The notes under the pieces were generated by a model. The model saw only the letters and a list, made by a program, of their open reading frames with translations, was not told the DNA's origin and made no database searches. A stretch of DNA of 64,000 nucleotides from Devosia psychrophila. GTDB lineage: Bacteria > Pseudomonadota > Alphaproteobacteria > Rhizobiales > Devosiaceae. Below, piece by piece: positions 5,623 to 48,383 of the stretch (positions are counted from its first letter, which is position 1; every line of letters begins with the position of its first letter). The translations under genes were made by a program, and so were the position numbers. The DNA lies in NCBI RefSeq assembly GCF_000971275.1, contig NZ_LAPV01000159.1:1-64000 (forward strand). The letters are read 5' to 3'.

Positions 5623-5638
5623 CGTTTCACGTGAATCC
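5623..5638. other. parS-like site with GANTC half
   Basis: Reads cGTTTCACGTGAATCc. The other strand reads GATTCACGTGAAAC, one base from the canonical parS core GTTTCACGTGAAAC. The changed base creates GATTC, a CcrM (GANTC) methylation motif. It lies in the gap before the esterase-like gene. Confidence 0.6.
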
Positions 5639-5725
5639 GTGTGCCGCGAAATGGGCTTATTCACGCCCAAGTGCGGTCCGCATTATCCAGTCAAAGCTCA
5701 GCTCACAAAATTGCGAGGCCTGCTG

Positions 5726-6796
5726 ATGTCCGATTCTGGCCAGGATCATTCCAATTCACTTCCACCATCCGACTCCATCGGCCGCCTAGCCGAGTTGATC
5801 AGCGGCGATCCGATGGGCCGGATCGATGCCGACATGAAGCATGTGCTGGATCGCCTGACCGAGCTCGGCGCCCGCTCGTTGGAGCATCTTTCACCTCAGC
5901 AGGCCCGACAGCAGCCGCAGGTCGGCGAGGCCGTTGCCGCCATTCTCGGCCAACAAAGCCGCGAATGGCCCAATGACGGCGTCACGGCGGAAGACAGCGC
6001 TATCCTCGGCGCAGCAGCCGAATCACAACTACCGGCTCGGATCTATCGTCCGGCCGGACTGCTCAGCCGGCTCAATCCGATGGTGCTGTATTTCCATGGT
6101 GGCGGTTTCGTCACCGGCGACCTCGACAGCCACGACGCATCGGCACGGGCCATTGCACGGCGCACCGGAGCAATCGTGGTCTCTGTCGCCTATCGCCTCG
6201 CCCCGGAGCATAAATTCCCGGCCGCACACGACGATGCCGTTGCCGCCTGGCGCTGGCTGATCAATGCAGCCAATGATCTCGCTGGTGACCCCAAGCGCCT
6301 GGCGGTGGCCGGTGAGGATGCGGGCGGCAACCTGGCGTTGCATGTTTCACTGACGGCGCGCGACCGGGGCCAGACCCAGCCGGTGCATCAACTGCTGATC
6401 CACCCGATTGCCGGCGGTGATCTGGCGACGCCGTCGTATGGCGAAATGCTGCGGGCTCGGCCAATAGGCCTGCCAGCGATGCGTTGGCATTATCGGCACC
6501 TGCTCGACGATCAGGACGGGCTCAAGGATAGCCGCATCGATTTCGTTGGGCGCGACGATCTCGCCGGATTGGCTCCGGTCACGCTGATCCAGGCAGGCCT
6601 CGATCCGCTGCGTTCCGAGGGCGAGACCCTCGCCGTTGCGCTGGAACGCGCGGGTGTTGCGGTCAGTAGCTGGACCTATGAAGGCGTGACGCAGGGTTTT
6701 TTCGGCCTCGGTCTTGTCGTGACCAAGGCGCTGTTCGCCCAGTCCGACGCGGCCGATGCCTTGAGCAAGGCCTTTGCACCAAGCCGTCGGGGCTAG
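5726..6796 (+). CDS. Alpha/beta-hydrolase (HSL/acetyl-esterase fold) lacking catalytic Ser and His
   Basis: A 356-residue protein with the hormone-sensitive-lipase-type fold. The oxyanion motif HGGGF is at 124-128 and the family stretch AYRLAPEHKFPAA near 155-167. The nucleophile elbow, normally GDSAGG, reads GEDAGG (196-201), with Asp198 in place of the catalytic Ser. The usual catalytic His reads Gln323 (GVTQGFFG). Only the acid Asp293 (GLDPLR) remains. The hydrolase is therefore probably inactive, or uses different chemistry. Start 5726 is chosen for a GAGG site 7 bases upstream; an in-frame GTG lies at 5639. The N-terminal ~100 residues are helical. It precedes dnaJ on the same strand. 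Confidence 0.85.
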   Translation: MSDSGQDHSNSLPPSDSIGRLAELISGDPMGRIDADMKHVLDRLTELGARSLEHLSPQQARQQPQVGEAVAAILGQQSREWPNDGVTAEDSAILGAAAESQLPARIYRPAGLLSRLNPMVLYFHGGGFVTGDLDSHDASARAIARRTGAIVVSVAYRLAPEHKFPAAHDDAVAAWRWLINAANDLAGDPKRLAVAGEDAGGNLALHVSLTARDRGQTQPVHQLLIHPIAGGDLATPSYGEMLRARPIGLPAMRWHYRHLLDDQDGLKDSRIDFVGRDDLAGLAPVTLIQAGLDPLRSEGETLAVALERAGVAVSSWTYEGVTQGFFGLGLVVTKALFAQSDAADALSKAFAPSRRG

Positions 6797-6830
6797 GCTC
6801 GATCGGAAATCACCGATGTTGAAGCTCCGG

Positions 6831-6851
6831 CCCGCTCTTGCTATGAGCGGG
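6831..6851 (+). terminator. Hairpin after the esterase-like gene
   Basis: Seven-base stem CCCGCTC/GAGCGGG with loop TTGCTAT, 35 bp after the stop codon. There is no clear T-run, so termination is uncertain. Confidence 0.4.
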
Positions 6852-6880
6852 TATTGGCTCTGCCATCTCGACCCCAGCCC

Positions 6881-6912
6881 CTTGTGGTGCGCGGGGTCGA
6901 TTGCCATCTAGG
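6881..6912 (+). promoter_or_regulatory. Possible RpoH-type promoter of dnaJ
   Basis: CTTGTG at 6881 and CCATCTAGG at 6904, spaced 17 bp, loosely fit the alphaproteobacterial sigma-32 pattern. The match is much weaker than at dnaK, and the -35 lies in the loop of a TCGACCCC/GGGGTCGA inverted repeat. Confidence 0.3.
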
Positions 6913-6981
6913 GGTGGCTCGGGGCTTAAAGATTTGACAGGGCGCGCCTGACGCGACCGGTCGTATTTGGAGACGTTGTTC

Positions 6982-8124
6982 TTGTCCAAACGGGATTTCT
7001 ACGAGGTGCTCGGCGTCCAGAAGGGTGCTGACGATGCTGCGCTCAAGAGCGCCTATCGCAAGCTTGCCATGCAGCATCACCCCGACCGCAATCCCGGCAA
7101 TTCCGAATCCGAGGCCAAATTCAAGGAATTGAGCGAGGCCTATGACACGCTCAAGGACGGCCAGAAGCGGGCTGCCTATGACCGGTTCGGCCACGCCGCG
7201 TTTGAAAATGGCGCGCGCGGGCCTGCCGGCAGCGGCTTCGGCAATGACTTCAACTCATCGATGTCCGATATTTTCGATGACATCTTTGGCGACTTCATGG
7301 GCGGCAACGGCGGTGGCCGTCGTAGTGGTGGCGGCGCTGCCAAGCTGCGCGGCGCCGACCTGCGCTATAATCTTGAAATCAGCCTTGAGGAAAGCTTCGA
7401 GGGCAGCACCGTCGAGATCGACGTGCCCACTCTCGTTGGCTGCACCACCTGCGATGGCTCGGGCGCCAAGCCGGGCACCGGCACCCATACCTGCCGCCAG
7501 TGCAATGGCCATGGCAAGGTCCGCGCCGCGCAGGGCTTCTTCACCATCGAGCGCACCTGCCCGGTTTGTCAGGGCCGCGGCCAGATGATGGATTCGCCCT
7601 GCACCGATTGCGCCGGCCAAGGCCGCCGCCAGGAAAACCGCAAGCTGTCCGTCGATATTCCGAAGGGCATCGAGGACGGTACCCGCATTCGGCTTGCCAA
7701 CGAGGGCGAAGCGGGCTTGCGCGGTGGTCCGCCGGGCGATCTCTACATCTTCATATCGCTGCGCCCGCATGACCTGTTCCAGCGCGATGGGGCGGACCTA
7801 TATGCGCGCGTACCGATCGCCATGACCACGGCGGCGCTCGGCGGCGAATTCGAAGTGCCGACGCTCGATAGCGCCCGCGCCAAGGTGAAGGTTGCTGCCG
7901 GCACCCAGCCAGGCCAGCGCGTCCGGCTCAAGGGCAAGGGCATGCCCGTGCTGCGCAGCAAGGATGTCGGCGATATGTATGTTCAGCTCGACATCGAGAC
8001 GCCGCAGGCACTGAGCCGCAAGCAGCGCGAATTGCTGGAAGAGTTCGCCAAGCTCGAGACCCAGGAAAACAGCCCGACGTCAGGCGGTTTTTTCGACAAA
8101 CTCAAGAAGATGTTCGAGGCTTAG
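6982..8124 (+). CDS. dnaJ: Co-chaperone DnaJ (Hsp40)
   Basis: Partner of DnaK that stimulates its ATPase and delivers substrates. The 380-residue protein has the type I layout: J domain 1-70 with HPD at 33-35, a Gly/Phe-rich stretch to about 120, a zinc-binding domain with four CxxCxGxG repeats ([32 protein letters not shown]), then C-terminal substrate-binding domains. The TTG at 6982 is taken as start because GGAG lies nine bases upstream and it gives the family's usual [12 protein letters not shown] beginning; an upstream in-frame TTG at 6967 would overlap that ribosome site. Confidence 0.96.
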
Positions 8125-8218
8125 AACCGTAGAAATCAACCCGGTGGGGCGATTTTAGGTTCAGGGCCAAGATGGCTCGACCCGAGTGGCGCGAGAATAC
8201 AGGCGGTAAAGGCTCATT

Positions 8219-9073
8219 ATGATCGAGATCGCCATGGCATTCGATGACGCATTCTGGGCGCCGACCTATGCCACAATGCGCTCGATCTGCCTGACGACGC
8301 ATCATCCGGGGCAGCTGCGGTTTCATCTGATGCATCGGGCGCTGACGCCCGAGCATATGGCTGCTATCGCCAGCATCGGGCGGGACTACGGCGCGACCAT
8401 CAATTTCATCGACATCGACGCATTGAATATTCTTGAAGGCCGCATCGCCGCATTTCCGCGCATCAGGCTGCGGCGGCTGAACCCGATCGTTTATGCCAGG
8501 CTATTCCTGGGCGATCTGCTGGACCCAGAAATTGCGCGGGTGCTGTATCTCGACAGTGATCTGTTCATCCGCAGCCCGCTCGATCCACTCTACTTCATGG
8601 AGATGGGCGGCTATGCCGTCGCCGCCGTATTACAGCCAGACCGCATGCATGTGATTGCCGGCAAGGACCTGCGCGCGCGCAAGGCCTTTTCCATGGCTGA
8701 GCCCTATTTCAATGCGGGCGTCATGCTGATCGACATGGTTCAATACCGGCAGATGGACTTTGCCGCAGGGCTTGCGGGCCTGCATGCCTCGGAACTTGCC
8801 CAATTCTACTATGATCAGGACATGATCAATTTCTGCTTCCGCGGCAGGATTCTCGAACTCGATATGCGCTGGAACCTGCAAAACCCGGAGCCGGCGCACG
8901 AGGTGCTGAACCCTTCCATCGTGCATTACTCGGCCAATCCCAAGCCGTGGTTCGTCTGGTCGCGCGTCGCCTTCAAGCGCACCTATCGGCACCTGATGAC
9001 CAACCAATATTATTACCAGTACCGGCGCGAGCGGTTGGTTCGAATGGTCAGGCGCTGCTTGCGACTGGGCTGA
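8219..9073 (+). CDS. Glycosyltransferase family 8 protein
   Basis: A 284-residue retaining sugar transferase of the GT8 type (GT-A fold), as in lipopolysaccharide glucosyl- or galactosyltransferases. The metal/nucleotide-sugar DxD motif is Asp112-Ser-Asp114 (YLDSDLF). The acceptor-side block FNAGVMLID lies near residue 163, and the C-terminal HYSANPKPW carries the conserved HxxxxKPW element. No membrane segment is visible, so it probably acts at the cytoplasmic face of the membrane on a surface glycan. The sugar and acceptor cannot be read from sequence. Its last 26 bases overlap the 3' end of a small opposite-strand gene. Confidence 0.9.
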   Translation: MIEIAMAFDDAFWAPTYATMRSICLTTHHPGQLRFHLMHRALTPEHMAAIASIGRDYGATINFIDIDALNILEGRIAAFPRIRLRRLNPIVYARLFLGDLLDPEIARVLYLDSDLFIRSPLDPLYFMEMGGYAVAAVLQPDRMHVIAGKDLRARKAFSMAEPYFNAGVMLIDMVQYRQMDFAAGLAGLHASELAQFYYDQDMINFCFRGRILELDMRWNLQNPEPAHEVLNPSIVHYSANPKPWFVWSRVAFKRTYRHLMTNQYYYQYRRERLVRMVRRCLRLG

Positions 9074-9269
9074 GTTCGCTCTCGTCAAGTTCGCGCGCCA
9101 GGGCCGTCAGCGCTGTGCGAGCGGCGGTCTCGGCATCGGCCAAGGCCGTGCCAAACGGCACCTCAAGTCCCAGCCGTCGCGTCGGATCGTCCGACCAGAT
9201 CAGCGACACATAAGACTTACGGCCCTGCAGGTCGTGGTTGAGATGGGTAACGATCAGTTTCGATGCCAT
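9048..9269 (-). CDS. Small hypothetical protein, 73 residues
   Basis: Small soluble protein with no family I recognise. The N-terminal half is beta-like (KLIVTHLNHD, YVSLIWSDDP) and the C-terminal half is a helix rich in Ala and Glu. ATG 9269 has an AAGGA site about seven bases upstream, which supports translation; a much longer in-frame extension upstream is antisense to the FMN reductase gene and is not credible. It converges on and overlaps the glycosyltransferase gene by 26 bp. Confidence 0.65.
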   Translation of the reverse strand: MASKLIVTHLNHDLQGRKSYVSLIWSDDPTRRLGLEVPFGTALADAETAARTALTALARELDESELSPVASSA

Positions 9270-11481: not shown

Positions 11482-11494
11482 CTAGATTGTGTCG

Positions 11495-17008: not shown

Positions 17009-17024
17009 GGTTTCACGTGAATCG
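17009..17024. other. parS-like site with GANTC half
   Basis: Reads gGTTTCACGTGAATCg. One half is canonical parS; the other, on the opposite strand, is GATTCAC, containing GATTC (CcrM motif). It lies between the Ada-like gene and gpmA. Confidence 0.6.
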
Positions 17025-21322: not shown

Positions 21323-22059
21323 GCCGCGCTCCTCAGCAAAGCCAGTGCTTCACGTGAATCAATGCGGCCGTCATACAGCGCCCGACCGGAAATGGCGCCT
21401 TCGAGGATGCGGAATTCGGGCCGCGTCATGCGCTCGATGTCGCCCATCGAAGCAAGCCCGCCCGAGGCGATGACCGGAATGCTGGTGGACAACGCCAGCT
21501 CGAGCGTCGCCGGCCAGTTGATGCCGGCCAGCACACCATCGCGATCGATGTCAGTATAGATGATGGCGGCAACCCCGGCGCCTTCGAAGCGCTTGGCCAG
21601 CTCGATGACGCTCAGCTCAGATGTCTCGGCCCAGCCTTCGACCGCTACCATGCCCTTGCGCGCGTCAATGCTCACTGCGACCTGGCCCGGCCAACGCGCG
21701 GCTGCTTGCTTGACCAGCGCCGGATCGCGCACCGCGACGGTGCCGAGGATGACGCGGGCAAGGCCCTTGTCGAGCCAGCTTTCGATGTGGGCCAGCGTGC
21801 GGATGCCGCCGCCGAGTTGCACCGGAAATTTCACCGCCTTGAGGATGGCATCCACCGCCGCGCCATTGACGCTCTCACCGGCAAAGGCGCCGTTGAGGTC
21901 GACGACGTGGAGATAGTCGAAGCCCTGGTCCTCGAAACTCCTGGCCTGGGCTGCCGGGTCGTCGTTAAAGACCGTGGCCTGTTCCATGTCGCCGAGCTTG
22001 AGGCGCACGCACTGGCCGTCCTTGAGGTCGATGGCTGGGAACAGGATCACGGCGTCCAC
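21319..22059 (-). CDS. hisA: ProFAR isomerase
   Basis: Fourth step of histidine synthesis: isomerises ProFAR to PRFAR. The 246-residue barrel has catalytic Asp11 (PAIDLKDG), GGGIRT, and the second-half [12 protein letters not shown] and ASGGLAS. Its C-terminal codons cover a parS-like site at 21346, encoding DSRE. It overlaps hisF (ATGA) and hisH (13 bp), forming a tightly packed operon. Confidence 0.97.
21346..21361. other. parS-like site inside hisA
   Basis: Minus strand reads TGATTCACGTGAAGCA, two changes from the 16-bp parS consensus. One change creates GATTC. Lowest-confidence member of the set because it is coding (DSRE) and departs in both halves. Confidence 0.45.
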
Positions 22060-33825: not shown

Positions 33826-33841
33826 CGTTTCACGTGAATCC
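33826..33841. other. parS-like site with GANTC half
   Basis: Reads cGTTTCACGTGAATCc, identical over 16 bp to the site at 5623. The altered half reads GATTCAC on the minus strand. It lies 1.8 kb from the putative origin. Confidence 0.65.
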
Positions 33842-34006: not shown

Positions 34007-35272
34007 ATGCAGAATATGAAGCTCAGTGAGCTCAAGGCCAAATCTCCGGCCGAACTCCTGGTGTTCGCTGAAGAACACGAGGTCGAGAATGCCTCGACCA
34101 TGCGCAAACAGGAATTGATGTTTGCCATCCTCAAGGAATTGGCCGCCCAGGAAGTCGACATCACCGGCGAAGGCGTCGTTGAAGTCCTGCCAGACGGTTT
34201 CGGGTTCCTGCGCTCCCCGGACGCAAACTATCTGCCGGGCCCCGATGACATTTATGTCAGTCCATCCCAGATTCGCCGCTTCGGTCTGCGCACCGGCGAC
34301 ACGGTCGAAGGCCAGATCCGGTCTCCCAAGGATGGCGAGCGCTACTTCGCGCTGCTCAAGGTCAACACCATCAATTTCGAAGATCCCGAGGCGGTTCGCC
34401 ACAAGGTGAACTTCGACAACCTGACCCCTCTCTACCCCGAAGAGCGGCTCCGCATGGAGTTGCCCGATCCCACCGTCAAGGATCGTTCGGCGCGGCTGCT
34501 CGATCTTGTAGCGCCGCTCGGCAAGGGCCAGCGCGCCTTGATTGTTGCGCCACCGCGTACCGGTAAGACGGTATTGTTGCAGAATATCGCACAATCAATC
34601 GCCACCAATCATCCCGAATGCTATCTCATCGTGCTGCTGATCGACGAGCGGCCCGAAGAAGTGACCGACATGCAGCGCTCGGTGAAGGGCGAAGTTATTT
34701 CCTCGACCTTTGACGAGCCAGCATCGCGTCACGTCCAGGTTGCGGAAATGGTTATCGAAAAGGCCAAGCGCCTGGTCGAACACAAGCGCGACGTCGTCAT
34801 CCTGCTCGATTCGATCACCCGCCTTGGCCGCGCCTATAACACCGTTGTGCCGTCCTCGGGCAAGGTGCTGACTGGCGGCGTTGACGCCAATGCACTGCAG
34901 CGCCCGAAACGCTTCTTCGGTGCCGCCCGCAACATCGAGGACGGTGGTTCGCTCACCATCATTTCGACAGCACTGATCGACACCGGTTCGCGCATGGACG
35001 AAGTGATCTTTGAAGAGTTCAAGGGCACCGGTAACTCGGAAATCATCCTGGATCGCAAGGTCGCCGACAAGCGCATCTTCCCGGCGCTGGACATCACCAA
35101 GTCCGGTACCCGCAAGGAAGAACTGCTGGTCGACCCCGATATCCTCAAGAAGATGTATGTGCTGCGCCGTATCCTCAATCCGATGGGGACTATCGACGCC
35201 ATGGAATTCCTGGTCGACAAGGTCCGCCAGACCAAGACCAATTCCGACTTCTTCGACTCGATGAATACCTGA
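34007..35272 (+). CDS. rho: Transcription termination factor Rho
   Basis: Hexameric RNA helicase that ends transcripts. The 421-residue protein has the N-terminal RNA-binding domain ([22 protein letters not shown]) and the ATPase core: Walker A APPRTGKT, Walker [14 protein letters not shown], the [12 protein letters not shown]-loop region and the R-loop GTGNSEI. It is a standard-length protein without the long inserts seen in some phyla. It lies downstream of hemE-hemJ after a repeat-filled gap. Confidence 0.98.
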
Positions 35273-35324: not shown

Positions 35325-36611
35325 ATGCGGTCAGGCGACACCATCGTGGCGCTGTCCTCCGGGGCACCGCCCTCCGGCGTAGCGGTTATTCGGCTTTCTG
35401 GCCCCGCCGTGGCAACTCTTCTCACCGACATCGCGGGTGACCTTCCCGAACCGCGGCGCTTGACGCTACGGGCGATCGGGCAGGATAGCCTGCTGGATCG
35501 TGGCCTTATCGCCTGGTTTCCGGCGCCGCACAGCTTCACCGGCGAGGATTGCGCAGAGCTGCAGGTGCATGGCTCGCGCGCTGGCGTTCGCGCTATACTG
35601 AAGCTCCTGAGTGGCAAGGGCGCACGACTGGCGGAAGCTGGTGAGTTCACGCGTCGCGCCTTCGAAAATGGCAAGCTCGATCTGGTCGAGATTGAAGGCT
35701 TGGGCGACTTGCTGGACGCCGAAACGGAGAACCAGCGCCGCCAGGCGCTGGCGCGTTTCGAGGGCGGGCTAACCCAACGCATTGACGGCTGGCGCGATCA
35801 ACTGCTGGATTTGCGCGCCGAAATAGAAGCCCGGCTGGACTTCTCCGACGAAGGTGATGTCGAGGAGGCACTACCGCCCGAGTTTGGCGGCAGCATCGCC
35901 GCGTTACGTGCTGACATACACGCTGCAGTCGATTCCATTGAACGCGGCCGTATTATCCGTGAAGGCATTCGAGTGGCGCTAGCCGGCGCACCAAACGTCG
36001 GAAAATCCAGCTTACTCAACGCTCTAGCGAAATCCGATATCGCCATTGTCACGGACGAGGCCGGCACCACGCGCGACGTTCGTGAGGTTCCGCTCGATAT
36101 TGGCGGACAGCTCTACATTCTGCTCGATCTCGCCGGCCTGCGTGACACCGACAGCAAAGCTGAGGCGGAAGGGGTCCGTAGAGCCAAGCTGGCCATTGAA
36201 CAGGCAGACATAGTGTTGTGGCTGACCGCACCGGATATCACCGACAATGGCATCGCGCCCGAAGGTTCGATACGCGTTGGCACCAAGGCAGATATTGGAT
36301 TGAACGCGGCCGCTGATGTATTGGTCTCGACAAGAACCGGCGAGGGGATGGAAAAACTCCTGGAGGTGATATCGGACCTGGGCGGGACTTTGACCACGGG
36401 CGAGCCACCCCTGCTCAGCCGGGAGCGCGACCGCATCGCCTTGTCAGAATCTCTCCATGCGCTGGATGACGCCAGCCTGCACCTAACATCACCTGAACTG
36501 GCTGCCGAGAGCCTGCGAATTGCGTCGCAATCTCTTGAGCGCCTGGTGGGTCGTATCGACGCCGAGCGCGTACTGGATCGTCTGTTTGCCAGCTTCTGTA
36601 TCGGCAAATGA
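35325..36611 (+). CDS. mnmE: tRNA modification GTPase MnmE
   Basis: With MnmG it makes the 5-carboxymethylaminomethyl group of U34 in tRNA. The 428-residue protein has the N-terminal folate-binding domain, then a G domain with GAPNVGKSSLLN, DEAGTTRD and DLAGLRDT, and ends in the conserved CIGK (Cys-x-Gly-Lys). Its stop codon TGA is the first part of a parS-like site at 36609. Confidence 0.97.
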   Translation: MRSGDTIVALSSGAPPSGVAVIRLSGPAVATLLTDIAGDLPEPRRLTLRAIGQDSLLDRGLIAWFPAPHSFTGEDCAELQVHGSRAGVRAILKLLSGKGARLAEAGEFTRRAFENGKLDLVEIEGLGDLLDAETENQRRQALARFEGGLTQRIDGWRDQLLDLRAEIEARLDFSDEGDVEEALPPEFGGSIAALRADIHAAVDSIERGRIIREGIRVALAGAPNVGKSSLLNALAKSDIAIVTDEAGTTRDVREVPLDIGGQLYILLDLAGLRDTDSKAEAEGVRRAKLAIEQADIVLWLTAPDITDNGIAPEGSIRVGTKADIGLNAAADVLVSTRTGEGMEKLLEVISDLGGTLTTGEPPLLSRERDRIALSESLHALDDASLHLTSPELAAESLRIASQSLERLVGRIDAERVLDRLFASFCIGK

Positions 36612-36624
36612 CTCACGTGAAACA
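36609..36624. other. parS-like site with GANTC half, touching the mnmE stop
   Basis: Reads TGACTCACGTGAAACA, two changes from TGTTTCACGTGAAACA. The left half reads GACTC, so the N position of GANTC differs from the other variants while GA and TC are kept. Confidence 0.65.
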
Positions 36625-36728: not shown

Positions 36729-36744
36729 TGATTCACGTGAAACA
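36729..36744. other. parS-like site with GANTC half
   Basis: TGATTCACGTGAAACA, one base from the 16-bp consensus; the change creates GATTC. Lies 33 bp before mnmG. Confidence 0.75.
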
Positions 36745-36776
36745 TTGGCCTATTGAGCCGGGCTGGAGATATTCGC

Positions 36777-38639
36777 ATGACCGATTATGCCGTCATCGTG
36801 GTTGGAGGTGGACACGCAGGCTCAGAAGCCGCAGCCGCCTCGGCGCGACTGGGGGTTGCCACGGCCCTGGTGACGCACAAGTTTGCGACCATCGGCGAAA
36901 TGAGCTGTAATCCGGCTATCGGCGGGCTGGGCAAGGGCCACCTGGTGCGGGAGATCGACGCGCTGGATGGTCTGATGGGCCAGGTAGCGGATCAGGCGGG
37001 TATTCAGTTTCGCGTGCTCAATCGTCGCAAGGGACCGGCAGTCCGTGGGCCTCGTGCCCAAGCTGACCGTAAGCTCTATCGCGAGGCCATGCAGGCAGCG
37101 ATTACGGCGCAACCCAATCTCGACGTCATCGAGGGTGAGGTCGACGATATCGAAGTGACCGATGGCGTGGTCAGTGGCGTCGTGCTGCTCGATGGTCGCC
37201 GTATCGGCACCAAGGCGGTGGTGCTGACCACAGGCACCTTCCTGCGTGGCCTGATCCATCGCGGCGAAGAAAGCACTCCAGCGGGGCGGCTCGGAGAAAA
37301 GTCGGTGCTCGGTCTTTCAACGCGCCTCGACAATCTTGGCCTGCAGCTGGGCCGTCTCAAGACGGGGACGCCAGCGCGGCTCGACGCCACCAGTATAGAC
37401 TTCTCTACCCTCGAAGAGCAGCCAGGCGATAATCCGCCCGAGGCGTTTTCCGCATTGACCAAGGCCATAACCACGCGGCAGGTCTCCTGCCATATGACAC
37501 GCACCACGGCCGAGACCCATCGGATCATCTCCGATAATCTGCATCGCTCGGCAATGTATTCAGGCCGCATCCAGAGCCGTGGCCCGCGCTATTGCCCGTC
37601 TATCGAGGACAAGGTGGTCCGTTTTGCCGATCGCGACAGTCATCAGATCTTCCTTGAGCCAGAAGGGCTGGACGACCAGACCATCTATCCAAACGGTCTA
37701 TCAACATCACTTCCAGCGGATGTGCAGGAAGCCTTTCTGCGTTCAATGCCGGGCCTGGAAAACGTCCGCATCATCCGGCCGGGCTATGCCATCGAGTATG
37801 ACTATGTCGATCCGCGCGAGCTGCGTCTCACGCTCGAGGTCAAGCGTCAGCCCGGACTGTATCTGGCGGGGCAAATCAACGGCACGACAGGTTATGAAGA
37901 GGCCGGCGCACAAGGCCTGCTCGCTGGCGCCAATGCCGCACTGGCGGCGCGCGGCGAGGTTCCGATGATCCTGTCGCGCACAGAGAGCTATCTCGGGGTG
38001 ATGGTGGACGATCTGGTGACGCGCGGCGTCTCCGAACCTTACCGCATGTTCACCTCGCGTGCGGAGTTTCGCCTGCATTTGCGCGCGGATAACGCTGACC
38101 AGCGTCTGACACCATTGGGCATCGAAACCGGACTGGTTGGCGAAGAGCGCCGTGAACTTTATTCGGTGAAGGCGGATGGAATGACGCATGGTCGGCAACT
38201 TTTGTCCGAAATGGTCACTTCCCCCACGGCCGCGCGGAAAGCCGGAATAGCTGTCAACGAAGACGGCAAGGCGCGGTCGGCGTTTGAATTGTTGTCTTAT
38301 CCCGATGTGACGCCCGCCGACGTCACCCGCCTGTGGCCTGCAATTGCCAGTATTCCGGCCAACATCATCGAGCAGCTCGTCGTCGATGCGCAATACGCCG
38401 TGTATCTCGACCGTCAACGCAATGACATTGAGGCGGTGCGTCGTGATGAGCAGAAGCCCATTCCAGAGAATCTGGACTACGCTGTTATTCCTGGCCTTTC
38501 GATGGAGCTGCGCCAGAAGCTGGCGCAATATCTTCCTCAGACCATTGCCCAAGCGCAATCTATGGATGGTATGACCCCGGCTGCTGTCACACTGCTGCTG
38601 GCGGTTATCCGACGTGGCGAATTCCGGAAGGCGAGCTAG
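36777..38639 (+). CDS. mnmG: tRNA uridine-5-carboxymethylaminomethyl modification enzyme MnmG
   Basis: FAD-dependent partner of MnmE. The 620-residue protein has the FAD-binding [10 protein letters not shown] (10-19), [21 protein letters not shown]-type block (kept to GGLGKGHLV), the C-terminal signature [16 protein letters not shown] and the tRNA-binding helical tail. ATG 36777 is chosen because GGAG lies eight bases upstream; an in-frame TTG at 36753 is unlikely. Its stop overlaps rsmG by one base. Confidence 0.97.
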
Positions 38640-39286
38640 TGTCTGATGAATCCGCAATTGAGTGTTATGCTCAATACTTTGCGCGCCCCCTGGCGAACGT
38701 GGCGGTTGATCTGGAATTATATGCTCAACTGCTGCACAAGTGGCAGGCCGTGCAGAATCTTGTTTCACGTGAAACACTGAATGAGGTGTGGACTCGACAT
38801 TTCGCCGACAGCTTGCAAGTATTAACGCTGCTCAAGCCGACAGATCAAGCGTTCCTGGATTTGGGAAGCGGTGGAGGTCTACCCGCTTTGCCACTGGCTA
38901 TAGCGCTCAAGGGCACCCCGGCATTTTTCACGCTGATAGAGCCGAACAGCCGCAAAGTTAGCTTTCTGCGAACCGTTGCTCGAGAACTGGGGCTGCTGGT
39001 TACCGTTGAAGGCGCTCGTAGCGACCAGATTGATTCACGTGAAACACCCGTGCCTGATGTCATCACATCGCGGGCTTTGGCGTCTCTCCCCCAATTGTGC
39101 ACTTGGATAAAGCCGTTCTTCGGGCCCCAAACCCGGGCGATTTTGCATAAAGGACGGGAACATGTTGAAGAACTGGCGGAAACGGCTACGCACTTTGATT
39201 ACGACGTGTTAATACAAGCCAGTGACATCGATACTAGCGGTGTCTTGCTCACGCTCACAAATTTGCGTGCGAAATCAGTTAGTTAG
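38639..39286 (+). CDS. rsmG: 16S rRNA (guanine527-N7)-methyltransferase
   Basis: Methylates G527 of 16S rRNA; the historical GidB. The 215-residue protein has LDLGSGGGLPALPLAI, the SAM motif, and SRALASLPQL near the C-terminus. GTG 38639 overlaps the mnmG stop (TAGTG). Two parS sites lie inside it at 38761 (canonical; encodes VSRET) and 39031 (encodes DSRET), so the coding sequence doubles as centromere. Confidence 0.95.
   Translation: MSDESAIECYAQYFARPLANVAVDLELYAQLLHKWQAVQNLVSRETLNEVWTRHFADSLQVLTLLKPTDQAFLDLGSGGGLPALPLAIALKGTPAFFTLIEPNSRKVSFLRTVARELGLLVTVEGARSDQIDSRETPVPDVITSRALASLPQLCTWIKPFFGPQTRAILHKGREHVEELAETATHFDYDVLIQASDIDTSGVLLTLTNLRAKSVS
38761..38776. other. Canonical parS site
   Basis: TGTTTCACGTGAAACA, a perfect 16-bp match to the universal parS sequence, inside rsmG 536 bp before parA. 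No GANTC is present. Confidence 0.95.
39031..39046. other. parS-like site with GANTC half, inside rsmG
   Basis: TGATTCACGTGAAACA, the same 16-mer as at 36729, one base from consensus, containing GATTC. Confidence 0.75.
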
Positions 39287-39311
39287 CGGCGAACGAGCTG
39301 GAGGCCGAATA

Positions 39312-40118
39312 GTGGCGCCCCGTATTTTGACACTGGCCAACCAAAAGGGCGGCGTGGGTAAAACCACGACTGCCATCAATCTTGCAACCGCCCTGGCCGC
39401 TATTGGCGAGCGGGTATTGATCGTCGATCTAGACCCTCAGGGCAATGCCTCGACGGGGCTTGGCATCTCGCGCACCAATCGCGAAGTGTCGTCTTATGAC
39501 CTGATGGTGGGCGAGGCAACCGTCGCCCAGGCGGCGATCATGACGGGCGTTCCAAATGTCGCTATCGTGCCATCCACTATGGACCTGTTGGGCGTCGAGC
39601 TCACCATAGCTGCCCATACTGACCGGGCTTTCAAGCTGCGCGACGCGTTCAAGCATCTCAGCGAGCTCAGCATTAATGACAAGCCGGTTAGCTATATTCT
39701 GATCGACTGCCCACCTTCACTGAATCTGCTGACTATCAATTCTCTGGTTGCGGCCGACGCCGTGCTGGTGCCGCTGCAATGCGAGTTTTTTGCGCTGGAA
39801 GGCCTCAGCCAATTGCTGCAGACAATCGAGCAGATTCGCTCGACGCTCAACCCGAACCTGTCGATCCAGGGCGTGGTGATGACCATGTTCGACAAGCGCA
39901 ACAACCTCAGTGAGCAGGTGCTGGCCGACGTGCGCAGCGAAATGGGTGATTTGGTGTATGACACCGTCATTCCGCGCAATGTGCGGCTGAGCGAGGCGCC
40001 ATCCTATGGCAAGCCTGCTCTCTTATATGATCTGAAATGTGCCGGCAGCCAGGCCTATCTGCGCCTCGCCACCGAAGTGATCCGTCGTGAGCGCCAGCTC
40101 ACGGCAGCGGCGGCCTAG
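39312..40118 (+). CDS. parA: Chromosome-partitioning ATPase ParA
   Basis: Deviant Walker-type ATPase that moves ParB-parS complexes. The 268-residue protein starts with ILTLANQKGGVGKTTT (Walker A with signature Lys12), then VDLDPQGNASTGLG and DCPPSLNLL. GTG 39312 follows GGAGG seven bases upstream; an earlier in-frame ATG at 39222 overlaps rsmG. parB begins ten bases after its stop. Confidence 0.96.
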   Translation: MAPRILTLANQKGGVGKTTTAINLATALAAIGERVLIVDLDPQGNASTGLGISRTNREVSSYDLMVGEATVAQAAIMTGVPNVAIVPSTMDLLGVELTIAAHTDRAFKLRDAFKHLSELSINDKPVSYILIDCPPSLNLLTINSLVAADAVLVPLQCEFFALEGLSQLLQTIEQIRSTLNPNLSIQGVVMTMFDKRNNLSEQVLADVRSEMGDLVYDTVIPRNVRLSEAPSYGKPALLYDLKCAGSQAYLRLATEVIRRERQLTAAAA

Positions 40119-40127: not shown

Positions 40128-41003
40128 ATGAACGAAAAACCAACACGTCTCGGTCGCGGCCTCGCGGCTCTGATCGGCGACATGGCGACTGTTGAGGGCG
40201 CCCGCGTCACTGAGTCAGGTGGCATCAAGAAGCTGCCCGTCGAGTTCATCATCGCTAACCGCTCCAATCCACGGCGGAGTTTCGATCCCGAGCAACTCGA
40301 AGATCTGACCAATTCGATCCGCGAAAAAGGCGTGATGCAGCCTTTGCTGGTCCGTCCCAGCAACGATCCAAACATTTTTGAGCTGATTGCTGGCGAGCGC
40401 CGCTGGCGCGCGGCGCAAAAGGCCGGCCTGCATGACGTGCCGGTTATCGTTCGCGACGTCGATGACAAGGAAGCGCTTGAGCTTGCCATTATCGAGAACG
40501 TGCAGCGCGCTGATCTCAACCCGCTCGAAGAAGCCATGGGCTACGGCCAGCTGATCGAGCAGTTTGAATATACCCAGCAGGACCTCGCCCAGGTCATAGG
40601 CAAGAGCCGGTCGCATGTGGCGAATACCCTACGCCTGCTCAAGCTGCCGGAAGATGTGCGCAGCATGGTTGCCAGCGGAACTCTGACGGCTGGTCATGCT
40701 CGTACGCTGATCACCGCCGAAGACCCGACAACATTGGCCCGCCAGATTGTCTCGGGTGGTCTGTCGGTGCGTGAGGCTGAGGCGCTGAGCCAGCAGCGCG
40801 AAGTTGCGGGTACTAATAAGCCGAGCGTGGCGCGTGTCGATCGTGACGCCGATACTGTGGCGCTGGAACGCCGCCTTTCGGATGCACTGGGGCTGTCGGT
40901 ATCGCTGGCGCATAGCGAGCGCGGCGGTAAGCTGGAGATCCGGTACAAGACGCTGGAGCAGCTTGATGGTCTCTGCGTCAAGCTGACGGGATACGCTAAC
41001 TAA
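40128..41003 (+). CDS. parB: Chromosome-partitioning protein ParB
   Basis: CTP-dependent clamp that loads at parS and spreads. The 291-residue protein has the ParA-binding N-terminal LGRGLAALIGD, the CTP-binding domain (NPRRSF and the C-motif GERRWRAAQ, with ENVQRADLNPLEEA), the helix-turn-helix DLAQVIGKSRSHVANTLRLL that reads parS, and a C-terminal dimer domain. Nothing in the helix-turn-helix looks altered, so canonical parS should be recognised. Confidence 0.97.
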   Translation: MNEKPTRLGRGLAALIGDMATVEGARVTESGGIKKLPVEFIIANRSNPRRSFDPEQLEDLTNSIREKGVMQPLLVRPSNDPNIFELIAGERRWRAAQKAGLHDVPVIVRDVDDKEALELAIIENVQRADLNPLEEAMGYGQLIEQFEYTQQDLAQVIGKSRSHVANTLRLLKLPEDVRSMVASGTLTAGHARTLITAEDPTTLARQIVSGGLSVREAEALSQQREVAGTNKPSVARVDRDADTVALERRLSDALGLSVSLAHSERGGKLEIRYKTLEQLDGLCVKLTGYAN

Positions 41004-41058: not shown

Positions 41059-41074
41059 CGTTTCACGTGAAACC
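41059..41074. other. Canonical parS core
   Basis: cGTTTCACGTGAAACc: the 14-bp symmetric core is perfect and only the outer bases differ. Directly after the parB terminator; no GANTC. Confidence 0.9.
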
Positions 41075-42619: not shown

Positions 42620-45215
42620 TGACGATCCTGTCCGGGACGATGACGATCTTCTTAGGTGCCTTGCCGTCCAGAATGCGGACTATCTCGTCCATTGACAAGA
42701 CCAGTGCCTCGACCTCGGCCGCCGCCATGCCCTTGGCCACAGTGATTTCGCCACGGCGCTTGCCGTTGATCTGGATCGGCATGGTGACTTCGTCGTCGAG
42801 CAGCAGCGCCGGATCGACCGGCGGCCAGAGGGCATCTGCCACAAGACCGCTGTTGCCGAGCGCTTCCCAACAGGTTTCGGCCAGATGGGGCATCATCGGC
42901 GCGATAAGCTGAATCAGCCGCTCCACGCCTTCGGCAAGGGCCGCAATGCGGCTTGCCGGTGCCGCGGCGACCAGTCCGGCCGAGCGCACCAGCGCGTTGG
43001 TCAGTTCATAGATCTGGGCGACGGCGCGGTTGAAGCGCAGGCCTTCGATATCGCTGCCCACATTGTGCACGGCGCGATGCACGATCTTGCGTAACGATAG
43101 GGCCTCACTGTCGTCAGAACCGGTAACAGTGCCTAAGGACTGTTTCACCAGATCGATGGTTTCGCCGACCAGCCGCCAGACGCGCTGCTGGAAGCGGCTG
43201 GCGCCTTCGACGCCGGCTTCGGTCCATTGTACGTCGCGCTCGGGCGGGGAATCCGACAGCATGAACCAGCGCGCGGTATCGGCGCCGTAAGTGGCGACGA
43301 TTTCGTCGGGATCCACCACGTTCTTCTTGGATTTGCTCATCTTTTCGATAGAGCCGATGCTGATCGTCTCGCCCGATCTGAGATGAGTGGCCCGGCGTCC
43401 TTCGCCAAAGGTTTCGATGACGATATCGGCCGGCGCGACCCACTCGCCGGCTGGCGCCTTGTAGGTCTCGTGGGTCACCATGCCTTGAGTGAACAGGCCC
43501 TTGAACGGCTCGTCATGCGCCACATGGCCGGTCGCCTTCATGGCGCGGGTGAAGTAGCGCGAATACAGCAGGTGCAGGATCGCGTGTTCGACACCACCGA
43601 TATACTGGTCGACCGGCAGCCAGCGATTGGCAATTGCCGGAATGGTCGGCGTATCGGCATGCGGTGCGGTAAAGCGGGTGTAGTACCAGGAGCTATCGAC
43701 GAACGTGTCCATGGTGTCGGTTTCGCGCCGTGCTGCGCCGCCGCATTGCGGGCAGTCGACATGCTTCCATTTCGGGTGGTGATCCAGCGCATTGCCCGGC
43801 TTGTCGAAAGTGACATCCTCGGGCAGCACGACCGGCAGGTCTTTCTTTGGCACCGGCAGGGTGCCGCAGACCTCGCAATGGATCACCGGAATAGGGCAGC
43901 CCCAATAGCGCTGGCGTGAAACACCCCAGTCGCGCAGGCGATATTGCGTCTGGGCTTTGCCCCAGCCGTTGGCCTGGAACAGGGCCAGCGTCTGGTCCAT
44001 GGCTTCCTGCACGCTCAGTTCGGCACCGGTCTCGCCAAACCACTGCACATAGCGTACGGCCTGGGTCTTGGGGGGCGAAAAGGCCTCGTCGCCTACGGGT
44101 TCGTTACTGTCGAGCGGCTTGAAAACGTCAATGACAGGCAGGTCGTACTTGCGGGCAAAGTCGAGGTCGCGCTGGTCATGCGCCGGGCAGCCGATGATGG
44201 CGCCGGTGCCATAGTCCATCAGCACGAAATTGGCGATATAGAGCGGCAGCTCCCAGCTTGGGTCAGCGGGATGGGTTGCCTTGATGCCGGTGTCGAAACC
44301 CAGCTTTTCCGCGGTTTCCAGCGCTTCGGCGGAGGTGCCGGCCTGCTGGCACAGCTTGTTGAAAGCGGCGACCTCGGGATTGCCCTCAGCCAGCGCCTTG
44401 GCCAGCGGATGGTCGGCTGCGATGGCGGCAAAGGTCGGGCCGCGCATGGTGTCTGGGCGGGTGGTGTAGACGGGCAGGGTGTCAAAGCCCTGCGGCGCGC
44501 CCTTGAGGCCGAAGTCGAAAGCCAGGCCCTGCGATTTGCCGATCCAGTTGCGTTGCATGACGCGCACTTTTTCCGGCCATTCGGTCAGCCCGTCGAGGCC
44601 ACTCAACAGCTCTTCGGCCATTTCGGAAATCTTGAAGAACCACTGGGTCAGCTCGCGCTGTTCCACCGGGGCGCCGGAGCGCCAGCCCTTGCCGTCGATG
44701 ACCTGTTCGTTGGCCAGCACGGTCATGTCGACCGGGTCCCAGTTGACCTTGGACTGCTTGCGGGTGACGAGGCCCGACGCCATCATGTCGATGAACATCG
44801 ACTGCTGGTGCTGGTAATACTCCGGCTCGCAGGTGGCGATTTCGCGGGTCCAGTCGATGGCAAGACCCATCGACTTGAGCTGTGCCTTCATCGCGGCGAT
44901 GTTCTGGCGGGTCCAGGTGCCGGGGTGGGTGTGGCGCTCGATGGCGGCGTTTTCCGCCGGCAGCCCGAAAGCGTCCCAACCCATCGGATGCAGCACGTTC
45001 TTGCCCTTGGCGCGGTGATATCGCGCCACCACGTCGCCCATGGAATAATTACGCACATGGCCCATATGGATGCGGCCCGATGGATAGGGGAACATCTCGA
45101 GCACGTAATAGGGTTCGCGCGGATCGTCATTGGAGCTGACAAAGCTCTGGTTATCGTCCCAGACCTTCTGCCACTTGGGTTCCATTTCGCGCGGATTGTA
45201 GCGTTCGCCGCTCAC
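42606..45215 (-). CDS. leuS: Leucyl-tRNA synthetase
   Basis: Charges tRNA-Leu. The 869-residue class I synthetase has the HIGH-like motif [11 protein letters not shown] near residue 43, an editing domain (about 225-425), a zinc-type pair (CEVCG, CPQCG) and the KMSKS-type [14 protein letters not shown] 45215 is chosen for AAGGA seven bases upstream and a normal N-terminus ([10 protein letters not shown]). First gene of leuS-lptE-holA. Confidence 0.97.
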
Positions 45216-45346
45216 TTGCTCGTCCTTGGGTAATATTTGCGCAAGGTGCACGGCAGAGTCCGGCGCTGCTTGCGTTTCTGGGGGATTTTGGCTACCGGAC
45301 CATCACCAGAATTCCCCACCAAGGTCAACAGGAACAGGGCGAAAGC

Positions 45347-46024
45347 ATGGACTCAGCCGCAGCCAACAGCCTAGAGGCCATCCGCACGCGTATCGCCAGC
45401 GCCCAGGCGCGCTTTGGGGCGTCAACCGAACGGGTCGAACTGGTCGCCGTTTCCAAGACCTTCGACGCCGAGGCGATCGAGCCGTTTCTGGAAGCCGGCC
45501 AGCGCGTGTTCGGCGAAAACCGGGTGCAGGAGGCTCAGGCCAAGTGGCCTGGCCTGCGCCAACGCTTCCCGGACGTGGAACTGCACCTGATTGGACCATT
45601 GCAGACCAACAAGGCGCGCGAGGCGGTGGCGCTGTTCGATGTGATCGAGACGCTAGATCGCGACAAGCTCGCCGGCATTCTTGCCGCTGAAATGGCGCTG
45701 TCCGGCCGCAAGCTCGCTTGCTTTGTGCAGGTCAATATCGGGCTGGAAGAACAAAAAGCGGGCATTGCGCCGGCTGAGACCGTGCAATTCGTCAGCCGCT
45801 GTCGCGACGTGCATGGGCTCGATGTGGTCGGGCTGATGTGTATTCCACCCGATGGCCTGCCGCCCGGTCCGTACTTTGCGCAGCTGGCAGGCCTCGGTCG
45901 CGCAGCCGGCGTTGCCCGTCTTTCGATGGGTATGAGCGGCGACTTCGAGGTCGGTATCGCAATGGGCGCCACCGATATTCGGGTGGGTTCGGCGTTGTTC
46001 GGCTACCGTCCACCGCTTAAATAG
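45347..46024 (+). CDS. YggS family pyridoxal-phosphate homeostasis protein
   Basis: A 225-residue PLP-binding barrel related to alanine racemase N-terminal domains. The PLP Lys is Lys37 (AVSKTF), with FGENRVQEAQ, HLIGPLQTNKA and LSMGMSGDFEVGIAMGAT-type blocks (key words LSMGMSGD). It buffers PLP and has no known catalysis. Divergent from leuS across 95 bp. Confidence 0.94.
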   Translation: MDSAAANSLEAIRTRIASAQARFGASTERVELVAVSKTFDAEAIEPFLEAGQRVFGENRVQEAQAKWPGLRQRFPDVELHLIGPLQTNKAREAVALFDVIETLDRDKLAGILAAEMALSGRKLACFVQVNIGLEEQKAGIAPAETVQFVSRCRDVHGLDVVGLMCIPPDGLPPGPYFAQLAGLGRAAGVARLSMGMSGDFEVGIAMGATDIRVGSALFGYRPPLK

Positions 46025-46179
46025 TTCTCATTCTTGGTATTTTTGACGCTTTGTCGACGAGGTGCAACTTCCCCGGCTAAGTTTCGTTCCTGATGGCTAT
46101 GACGGCGTTGTGATTGGTTGGCCCAAAACCGGTCGCAATGATGTGACCCAGGCCGTCTGAAAAAAGACCGGAGAAAACA

Positions 46180-46863
46180 ATGAACAAGCGACGCATCCTG
46201 TTGGTGGACGACGACGCTGATCTGCGCCAGACGCTGGTCGAACAGCTTGATACCTATCCGGAATTTGAAATTGTCCAGGCCGGCACTGCCAACGACGCGC
46301 TCAAGATCACGCGCGCGCAAAATATCGACCTGATGATCCTCGATGTCGGCCTGCCGGACATGGACGGTCGCGAGGCGGTCAAGGTGCTGCGCCAGGAGGG
46401 CTACAAGAGTCCGATCCTGATGCTGACCGGGCACGATAGTGATGCCGACCATATCAAGGGCCTCGAATCGGGCGCTAATGACTACCTGACCAAGCCGTTC
46501 CGCTTTCCCGTGCTGTTGGCCCGTATCAACGCTGCCTTGCGCCAGCATGACCAGAGCGAGGACGTGGTGTTCACCATCGGGCCGTACAGTTTCCAGCCGT
46601 CGGCGAAGATCCTCGAGGCCAATGATGGCAACAAGGTTCGGCTGACTGACAAGGAAACTTCCATTTTGAAGTACCTGTACCGGCAGGGCCCCAAGACCAT
46701 CACGCGCGATATTCTTCTCAAGGAAGTCTGGGGCTATAATAACCGGGTAACCACGCATACGCTGGAAACGCACATTTACCGGCTGCGCCAGAAGATCGAG
46801 CGCGATCCGTCCAATGCGCGCCTGCTGGTGACCGAAGACGGCGGCTATCGCCTGGTGCCGTAA
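46180..46863 (+). CDS. cenR: OmpR-family response regulator (CenR type)
   Basis: A 227-residue two-component regulator. Receiver domain 1-120: acidic pocket DDDAD (10-14), phospho-acceptor Asp55 (ILDVGLPDMDG), conserved Lys in LTKPFRFP. DNA-binding winged helix about 130-225 (LTDKETSILKYL, VTTHTLETHIYRLRQKIE). Sequence resembles CenR, the essential cell-envelope regulator of alphaproteobacteria; its usual kinase CenK is not next to it. It is a separate unit. Confidence 0.88.
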   Translation: MNKRRILLVDDDADLRQTLVEQLDTYPEFEIVQAGTANDALKITRAQNIDLMILDVGLPDMDGREAVKVLRQEGYKSPILMLTGHDSDADHIKGLESGANDYLTKPFRFPVLLARINAALRQHDQSEDVVFTIGPYSFQPSAKILEANDGNKVRLTDKETSILKYLYRQGPKTITRDILLKEVWGYNNRVTTHTLETHIYRLRQKIERDPSNARLLVTEDGGYRLVP

Positions 46864-46919
46864 ACGGTGGACCACCGCAAAATCTGGTACACTGCGTTTC
46901 AAAATGCCCTATAGGGTGA

Positions 46920-46943
46920 ATCAGCCCCTTTCCTGGGGCTGAT
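46920..46943. other. Inverted repeat before the cNMP-binding gene
   Basis: ATCAGCCCC-TTTCCT-GGGGCTGAT hairpin 20 bp before the start of the next gene; no T-run. Either a weak terminator of the regulator gene or a 5' leader structure. Confidence 0.4.
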
Positions 46944-46963
46944 GGCGCATCCGGATTGGGCAA

Positions 46964-47422
46964 ATGATCAGGGACGATGCGGCCGAGGCACTGGCTCAGG
47001 CTGAATTTTTCGATATCTGCGACGACGAGCAGCGGCGCATGCTGGCCTTTGCCGGAGACCTACGCCATTTCGATCCCGACGCCATGCTCTACAAGTCGGG
47101 CGCGGTGCCGCAGGGCGCTTTCGTGCTGATTTCCGGCACGCTCAAGTCCAAGCAAGATGGTGGCGGCAAGCCACATGTCATTTCCGAGCGGGGCAGCGTC
47201 GTCTCCTCCATGGCGCTGATCCTCAGCAAGCCCCGCCCCATCACCATTACCGCCGTCACCGATTGCGAGACGCTGTTCGTGCCGCGGACGGCCTTCCTCA
47301 AGCTGGTGCAACAATCGCCAGAGCTGGCGCAACGCGCTGTCGCCCGCGTCGAACGCGAGCTGGGGAATTACCTCGGGGCGCTCGAGCCAATCCGGCAACG
47401 GATGAAGGCTGGGGAAGACTAA
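46964..47422 (+). CDS. Cyclic nucleotide-binding-domain protein
   Basis: A 152-residue protein that is essentially a single CAP/cNMP-binding beta-barrel with a C-terminal helix. GAVPQGAFVLISGTL and ITAVTDCETLFVP match the fold. The phosphate-binding cassette is not clearly conserved (no RxAT-type arginine), and there is no helix-turn-helix, so it is probably not a classical Crp regulator. It tail-overlaps xthA by four bases. Confidence 0.8.
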   Translation: MIRDDAAEALAQAEFFDICDDEQRRMLAFAGDLRHFDPDAMLYKSGAVPQGAFVLISGTLKSKQDGGGKPHVISERGSVVSSMALILSKPRPITITAVTDCETLFVPRTAFLKLVQQSPELAQRAVARVERELGNYLGALEPIRQRMKAGED

Positions 47423-48231
47423 ACCCCGACAAACCGTGCGATAACCGGGACGTGGTCGCTCGGCTGGGGGGTGTAGCCGCGGTATTCCTTGATGGTTTCG
47501 GTACCGATGCAATGCTCGGCGACGTCGGCGGTGGACCAGATGTGGTCGAGGCGGCGGCCCTTGTTGGCGTTTTCCCAATCGGCGCTGCGATAGCTCCACC
47601 ATGAATAGAGCTTCTGGTCGTAGGGGACGTGCTTGCGCACCAGGTCGACCCAGCCATGCCCGCCATTGAGGATGGCGTCGAGCGCCTGGGTCTCGACGGG
47701 GGTGTGGCTGACGATCTTGAGCAGCTGCTTGTGGCCCCAGACGTCGTTCTCATGCGGCGCGATGTTGAAATCGCCGGCAATCAAATGGCCGCGCTGGAAC
47801 ATCGGATCGGCGAACCAGGCTGTCAGCTCGCTGAGGAAGCCCAGCTTGTGTTTGAACTTGGGGTTGATCTCGGGATCGGGCTCATCGCCACCGGCCGGAA
47901 TATAGAAATCATGCAGCGTCACCGGGCCATGGCCAAAATCGGTCAGCGCCGAGACGTGACGTGATTCGGGAATCTCGCAGAACACCTTGCTCGACACGTC
48001 GGTCAGCGGAAATTTGCTGACGATGGCGACGCCGTGGTAGCCTTTCTGGCCATGCACGGCCATGTGCGGATAGCCGGCGTCGATGAAGGCATTGCGCGGA
48101 AACTGGTCGTCCAGGCATTTGATCTCCTGGAACATGATCACGTCGGGCGCGTGCTTGGCGATGAAATCGAGCACCATCGGCAGGCGCAGGCGGATCGAGT
48201 TGATGTTCCAGGTGACGATCGAAACGGACAT
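47419..48231 (-). CDS. xthA: Exodeoxyribonuclease III (AP endonuclease)
   Basis: Repairs abasic sites. The 270-residue protein of the EEP nuclease fold has WNINSIRLR, QEIKCLDDQFP (catalytic Glu), GDFNIAPHENDVW (Asp-x-Asn) and the C-terminal LDHIWST and SDHVPVIARF (catalytic Asp-His). A complete active site. Its leftward orientation converges on the cNMP-binding gene. Confidence 0.95.
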   Translation of the reverse strand: MSVSIVTWNINSIRLRLPMVLDFIAKHAPDVIMFQEIKCLDDQFPRNAFIDAGYPHMAVHGQKGYHGVAIVSKFPLTDVSSKVFCEIPESRHVSALTDFGHGPVTLHDFYIPAGGDEPDPEINPKFKHKLGFLSELTAWFADPMFQRGHLIAGDFNIAPHENDVWGHKQLLKIVSHTPVETQALDAILNGGHGWVDLVRKHVPYDQKLYSWWSYRSADWENANKGRRLDHIWSTADVAEHCIGTETIKEYRGYTPQPSDHVPVIARFVGV

Positions 48232-48309
48232 GTTGGGGCCTTTGCTGGCAGGGACATCCTTATCGCCAAGCCAGCGCCAGCAAACAAGCCGGATATGACG
48301 GCCTCAACG

Positions 48310-48324
48310 TTAACGCTGTGCTAA
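48310..48324 (+). promoter_or_regulatory. Possible CtrA-like site before xthA
   Basis: TTAA-CGCTGTG-CTAA followed by CC: one mismatch to TTAA-N7-TTAA, 79 bp before the xthA start. A single half-degenerate match, so weak. Confidence 0.3.
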
Positions 48325-48367
48325 CCGGTTGCGGTCCGATACGCGCCGAAACGAGGGGCGGCTAAAC

Positions 48368-48383
48368 CGTTTCACGTGAATCA
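48368..48383. other. parS-like site with GANTC half
   Basis: Reads cGTTTCACGTGAATCa; minus strand TGATTCACGTGAAACG. Two changes from the 16-bp consensus including the one that creates GATTC. It lies beside the rplS terminator, 16 kb from the putative origin. Confidence 0.6.

Follow-up and report, generated by a model that had tools for sequence, protein, structure and literature searches.

The stretch of DNA analysed here, 64,000 nucleotides from Devosia psychrophila (NZ_LAPV01000159.1, positions 1 to 64,000; C67:1-64000 of a 4.52-Mb draft genome; hereafter the window), contains the partition genes parA and parB together with ten 14-mers that resemble parS, the site of ParB. Two of them are canonical; in each of the other eight, one half of the site bears a GANTC, the target of CcrM, a DNA methylase of the cell cycle (GATTC in seven cases and GACTC in one). 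All ten had been listed in a preliminary description of this DNA, with starts placed one base too early, as had the restriction of the canonical form to two of them (38762 and 41060, given there as 38761 and 41059). The same description attributed a shared core to all ten; TTCACGTGAA is exact in nine only, as 36610 reads CTCACGTGAA instead, and the TCAC core is present in ten out of ten. Its statement that the remaining eight are changed in one half to GANTC holds for the number of sites, 21347 being also altered in its second half (GCTTCAC). Half-sites are named below by their first four bases, counted from the outer end, so that GATT departs from the canonical GTTT by an A at position 2 (A2). 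The ten sites are as follows:

5624..5637, + strand, parS-like site GTTTCACGTGAATC; GANTC in the right half; syntenic with 265995 (GTTT/GATT) in the relative G578
17010..17023, + strand, parS-like site GTTTCACGTGAATC; GANTC in the right half; syntenic with G578 276357 (GTTT/GATT)
21347..21360, + strand, parS-like site GCTTCACGTGAATC; GANTC in the right half, GCTT in the left; G578 282042 is likewise GCTT/GATT
33827..33840, + strand, parS-like site GTTTCACGTGAATC upstream of rho (class B); GANTC in the right half
36610..36623, + strand, parS-like site GACTCACGTGAAAC at the end of mnmE; GACTC in the left half; GATT in this region of L031, the nearest relative
36730..36743, + strand, parS-like site GATTCACGTGAAAC between mnmE and mnmG; GANTC in the left half; syntenic with G578 298336
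38762..38775, + strand, canonical parS GTTTCACGTGAAAC inside rsmG; canonical in 51 of 52 related loci
39032..39045, + strand, parS-like site GATTCACGTGAAAC inside rsmG (class F); GANTC in the left half; G578 300640
41060..41073, + strand, canonical parS GTTTCACGTGAAAC just 3' of parB (class G), varying in relatives; GTTC/GTTT at G578 302617
48369..48382, + strand, parS-like site GTTTCACGTGAATC; GANTC in the right half; syntenic with G578 309438

Chance is excluded as the source of eight GANTCs inside ten 14-mers. GANTC is about 2.6-fold under-represented in the window (85 occurrences vs about 223 by base composition), nearly one tenth of all occurrences are those embedded in the parS-like sites, and at the window's own rate 0.12 would be expected there (P about 1e-12). 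The sites themselves are equally out of proportion, TTCACGTGAA occurring nine times vs a mean of 0.03 in shuffled sequences.

Over the whole genome, TCACGTGA has 33 matches, and parS-like outer halves accompany 14 of them: the window's ten and another four on contig C75 (80534, 88387, 94774, and 101582), each of these four being of the GANTC type. The 13 matches to GANTCACGTGA comprise these 12 GANTC-type sites (eight in the window and four on C75) and one on C13 in which the second parS half is absent. With 12 of 13 matches on the window contig and C75, the GATTCAC type is not spread evenly over the genome; an even spread is what the preliminary description had named as speaking against its reading. 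Its claim of clustering stands for the surroundings of parAB, the parS-like sites being confined to C67 and C75, and is not borne out for a putative origin, the window having no sustained change of sign in GC skew and no TTATNCACA box. C75 apparently ends beside the start of the window: in G578:C20, the counterpart of window base 354 comes 0.8 kb after that of C75 (up to 95868). For the last 5.8 kb of C75, no alignment of at least 250 bases with G578 was obtained.

The genes around the central sites were assigned by Pfam domains:

34007..35272, + strand, rho
35325..36611, + strand, mnmE (trmE)
36753..38639, + strand, mnmG (gidA)
38639..39286, + strand, rsmG (gidB)
39222..40118, + strand, parA (AAA_31 / CbiA ATPase)
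40128..41003, + strand, parB (ParB_N, HTH_ParB, ParB_C)

Conservation of the half-sites among relatives

We compared the best 80 of 383 loci found around parB; the ParB of Devosia sp. YR412 is 94% identical to that of the window. Opposite a perfect GTTTCAC half (n = 409), the other half is GATT in 241 sites, GTTT in 115, GTTC in 15, GACT in 13, GATC in 6, and of other forms in 19. Single substitutions in positions 1–4 are T2A in 241 of 263 cases, T2C in one and T2G in none, so that the change that creates GANTC is enriched over other single-base variants, a comparison that the preliminary description had proposed. None of the 286 GANTC-bearing sites has a GANTC in both halves, vs about 40 expected under independence.

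Counts by orthologous place were made in 52 full-length loci, out of the 60 loci L031-L090 that belong to Devosiaceae or are nearest to them. Upstream of rho, 44 of these loci have one site each, invariably with a GATT half (partner GTTT in 39, GTTC in four, and GCTT in one). The 110 sites of the mnmE-mnmG class have GATT in 107, GACT in two, and AATT in one (partner GTTT in 102, GTTC in seven, and GCTT in one). Over both classes, 153 of 154 sites preserve the GANTC half and 141 the partner half; the partner thus deviates more often (13/154; P = 0.0015, relatedness uncorrected), and the GANTC half is replaced by GTTTCAC in none of the 154. GTTTCAC should suit ParB best; had the change been neutral or no more than tolerated, reversion to this form would have been expected, yet none of the sites shows it. 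The flanks of the two classes are near saturation (29–45% identical) while the 14-mers are 98–99% identical. This retention, with which the synteny in G578 agrees, bears out the expectation that the sites are conserved among related Devosia loci. DNA aligned between G578 and this genome is about 72–88% identical, and site type and orientation are the same for C75 94774 and for window 5624, 17010, 21347, 33827, 36730, 38762, 39032, and 48369, including the canonical form of 38762 and the odd GCTT/GATT form of 21347. C75 88387 corresponds to GATT/GTTC, window 41060 to GTTC/GTTT, and the place of window 36610 holds two GATT/GTTT sites. No counterpart of C75 101582 was found by synteny in G578, the region compared leaves out that of C75 80534, and G578 has one extra site without a counterpart (243325).

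At the other places, the first rsmG site is canonical in 51 of 52 loci, and the second (44 rows) is GATT in 41, GACT in one, GATA in one, and ATTT in one, this last row (L043) being probably the first rsmG site, displaced with its neighbours by about 270 bases. The 45 sites found 3' of parB are variable in composition (halves GTTT 63, GTTC 12, GATC 5, GTTG 5, GCTC 3, GATT 1, and GCTT 1). The base just outside the GANTC half (position −1) is T in 88% of mnmE-mnmG sites and in 0/39 upstream of rho, a contrast that points to two subtypes of hybrid parS. A longer motif, TGAYTCA, is ruled out by this absence of T at −1 upstream of rho, and the copying of one 14-mer by unrelated flanks, place-dependent orientation, and a variable position 3. 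L043, from Candidatus Devosia symbiotica, has apparently an ATTT/GTTT first rsmG site and an AATT/GTTT site in the mnmE-mnmG region, and its site 3' of parB was not found; its parS set seems to be decaying in this symbiont.

The order-wide counts, made in the same 247 genomes with the reversed pattern as control, separate the effects of positions 2, 3, and 4. GTTTCACGTGANTC gives 395 sites (control 2) in 127 of 247 genomes and 52 of 103 genera, whereas C at position 2 gives 29 (control 12). A2 combined with a changed position 4 remains at the control level (6 sites; control 5), whereas T2 with a changed position 4 gives 62 sites (control 7) and T2 with a changed position 3 gives six (control 1). 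Among 150 listed of the 395 sites, 139 are GATTC and 11 GACTC, with no GAATC or GAGTC. A2 halves thus vary at position 3 (GACTC) with T4 retained, and canonical halves do the reverse, both order-wide (P = 4e-6) and at orthologous Devosiaceae sites (positions 3 and 4 changed in 3 and 1 vs 1 and 28, P = 0.003), relatedness being uncorrected in both tests. GACTC also occurs in 8/24 such sites of other families.

The change from GATTC to GACTC likely happened more than once. In the ParB tree, which left out loci shorter than 20,800 bases and the L089 ParB (101 amino acids before a stop), the window (GACTC) is sister to L031 (GATTC), L033 adjoins L032 (GATTC), and L051 stands elsewhere, at an open fork; a count of label changes on this tree, in which unlabelled rows are uncounted, forces two only. 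The parB frame of L089:10001 (Devosia sp. A8/3-2) ends after 101 amino acids through a frameshift or sequencing error. That GACTC at 36610 is a sign of selection on GANTC, as the preliminary description had argued, is upheld by GATT at this place in L031, by further GACT changes in Devosiaceae, and by the 8/24 sites elsewhere. Since A2 halves loosen position 3 but hold position 4, the object of selection seems to be GANTC itself rather than a duplicated 14-mer.

ParB, CcrM and a possible role for methylation

The locus has the composition of a chromosomal ParABS system, with a ParA ATPase beside a ParB that possesses ParB_N, helix-turn-helix, and dimerisation domains, and with parS palindromes clustered near parAB. 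ParB matches Caulobacter ParB 6t1f (E-value 1.8e-78), and the GKSRSHVANT and TAGHAR segments are identical. At the place of Caulobacter A184, located by motif, it has a lysine, and K or R is found there in 74 of the 75 loci (out of 80) in which the helix-turn-helix was located, the other (L110) having S. According to PMC7383237, K or R is permissive at this position and the equivalent lysine of Noc contacts the phosphate of base 2. K/R at this place could explain the tolerance of A2, although L093 and L096 also have K and are without GANTC sites by the same count. The genome contains one close ParB, and a second chromosomal ParB or Noc as owner of the sites is ruled out, the sole further match being weak (E-value 7e-6, 25% identity). 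One PF01555 protein is present (377 amino acids, with N6_N4_Mtase and RAMA domains), whose best NCBIfam model is CcrM, and a CcrM homologue (E-value below 1e-60) is found in 246 of 247 genomes of the order. On architecture and rank, not on the model cut-off, the genome encodes a CcrM-type enzyme.

From these sequence patterns, we conclude that the parS-like sites are apparently under selection to be CcrM targets, which suggests that methylation may tune a bacterial centromere. Given homology and position, ParB very likely binds the sites, and their GANTCs are likely methylated; that methylation affects ParB, and in which direction, is unproven. We give an even chance to a division of these parS into two classes, of which the auxiliary one has methylation-dependent ParB loading. 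The canonical palindromes, few in number and located in rsmG and often 3' of parB, would nucleate ParB whatever the methylation state, and the larger auxiliary set (12 in the genome) would have one half canonical or nearly so and the other selected as a GA-Y-TC target. CcrM acts late in the cell cycle, a timing established in other alphaproteobacteria, and would then fully methylate the GANTC halves; once the fork had passed, both copies would stay hemimethylated until the end of S phase. ParB could sense the difference through the major groove of the GANTC half, shifting the number of effective loading sites when the region replicates, and, as to direction, our guess is that nucleation is weaker at fully methylated sites and recovers once they are hemimethylated. 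The full proposal, put forward only tentatively, is an epigenetic centromere timed by replication and shared by a large group of Hyphomicrobiales, in which hemimethylation behind the fork would alter ParB nucleation at the many sites with one half as CcrM target. As the target is asymmetric and its orientation fixed at each place, sister copies would carry the methyl group at different half-site positions, and ParB could tell them apart until CcrM acts.

Several observations weigh against the two-class explanation. In a sample of the phylum, the GAYTC-type pattern was found in 12 of 22 genomes of the same order (this one excluded), and 23 of 24 other alphaproteobacteria lack it, with one that has it; 7 of 103 other Pseudomonadota have a GTTTCACGTGAATC site, one each. 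By pattern, 119 of 246 CcrM-bearing genomes of the order have no GANTC-type site. The order's one genome without a CcrM match (G506) has none either, and since its two sampled family mates are equally without, it is no control for CcrM loss. The second rsmG site is coding (D-S-R-E-T), so that the protein may hold A2 there. In the 80 loci, seven sites have A2 but no GANTC: one GATA and six GATC/GTTT (L047, L054, L057, L064, L076, and L079), these six all within about 0.25 kb 3' of parB. Position 3 is T or C and never A or G (80 loci and the 150 listed order-wide rows), which means that the N of GANTC is not fully free. Finally, the enzyme scores 625 bits with the CcrM model, short of the 830 required by its cut-off. 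GANTC-type parS is a trait of part of the order, not of all CcrM bearers, and the coupling is not general. In a class sample of 289 genomes, the matches listed are mainly canonical sites. The non-alphaproteobacterial genomes with a single GTTTCACGTGAATC are G302, G303, G308, G353, G360, G363, and G367, four from one genus; these sites may be A2 parS.

A different explanation retains the A2 half and dispenses with methylation: ParB would tolerate A2, the weaker half being kept to set loading, and GANTC would be incidental. The total lack of double-GANTC sites where about 40 are expected looks as if the A2 half were weaker, the K/R found at the A184 place is a kind of residue called permissive in PMC7383237, and A2 without GANTC at seven sites, as well as GATTC-type sites in some non-alphaproteobacteria, are in line with it. 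It does not predict, however, the excess of A2 over C2 (395 vs 29; G2, not searched order-wide, is absent among the single substitutions in the 80 loci), nor that A2 with a changed position 4 stays at the control level although T2 halves often change there, nor the relaxation of position 3 on A2 halves, and K is also present in L093 and L096, both without a GANTC site by count. Affinity tuning on its own accounts for the absence of double sites but leaves the position 3/4 pattern unexplained, and we regard it as rather unlikely. ParB might instead shield GANTC, leaving bound auxiliary sites unmethylated or methylated late; the output would then be the mark rather than ParB loading, serving, for instance, CcrM/GcrA-dependent events close to the centromere. 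Shielding is nearly as compatible with the data as methylation-dependent loading, and the better retention of the GANTC half than of the canonical half agrees with it. The available sections of PMC5172544 report that MucR occludes GANTCs from CcrM and that methylation of GANTC at the Caulobacter parS locus is unchanged when methylases are over-expressed; the same sections do not state whether these GANTCs are inside parS, nor what their methylation state is. Two of the ten window sites, one of them of GANTC type, lie within the rsmG frame, which makes a promoter-type output less likely, and we consider shielding an unlikely alternative to methylation-dependent loading. As to another DNA-binding protein owning the asymmetric motif, with the overlap with parS secondary, the asymmetry and the orientation kept at each orthologous place would fit such an owner. 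The CACGTG core and a canonical or near-canonical second half are nevertheless kept, the sites lie among canonical parS beside parAB in a genome with one close ParB only, and the outer flanks differ by class (T at −1 in 88% vs 0/39), all of which makes this highly improbable.

Relation to known systems and a DnaA-box-like pair

RepB-type parS has a different sequence from the sites described here. The likeness to repABC replicons is in their GANTC-rich regions, for which a link of CcrM sites to replication or partition has been proposed; in these replicons, the GANTCs lie beside parS or in promoters, whereas in Devosia they lie inside a ParB half-site and next to a parAB of main-chromosome type (PMC9040568, PMC11514494). 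Another close model is the ParAB-parS system of Caulobacter crescentus, for which the literature gives the parS consensus TGTTTCACGTGAAACA (PMC7383237) and seven putative parS sites (PMC5815017). The two share the parA-parB order, the ParB domains, the DNA-contact segments, the CACGTG palindrome, and several sites near parAB, but most Devosia sites, 12 in the genome, are hybrids with one half a CcrM target. Competition between a protein and CcrM on overlapping GANTCs is an established control, according to the MucR report (PMC5172544); MucR, however, is a transcription regulator, whereas in Devosia the overlapping protein site is a centromere. Noc and its binding site (NBS) offer a variant half-site within the same protein family, which departs at positions 1 and 6 according to PMC7383237, whereas the Devosia sites depart at position 2. 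The Noc features (Q173/R201, ATTTCCC) are not seen here, as ParB has R and G at the R173/G201 places by motif numbering and none of the ten sites departs from TCAC. In the portions of the open-licence PMC literature searched, we found no report of GANTC inside a chromosomal parS. If true, the proposal would provide a direct link between CcrM and the centromere and would bear on how alphaproteobacteria fit ParB loading and segregation to replication. The conserved methylatable half makes methylation-dependent loading directly and cheaply testable at 12 known positions, and the patchy occurrence in the order (127 of 247 genomes) supplies natural contrasts.

At C75:88387-88423 (L018:9388-9424), the GANTC-type parS at 88387 stands no more than 2 bases ahead of a pair of DnaA-box-like 9-mers, TTATCCACA (88403) and TTATTCACA (88415), 12 bp apart. 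This combination is possibly an origin or a DnaA-titration element. The arrangement is partly kept at G578 245891, with GATT/GTTC, an altered first box, and TTATGCACA at 245919.

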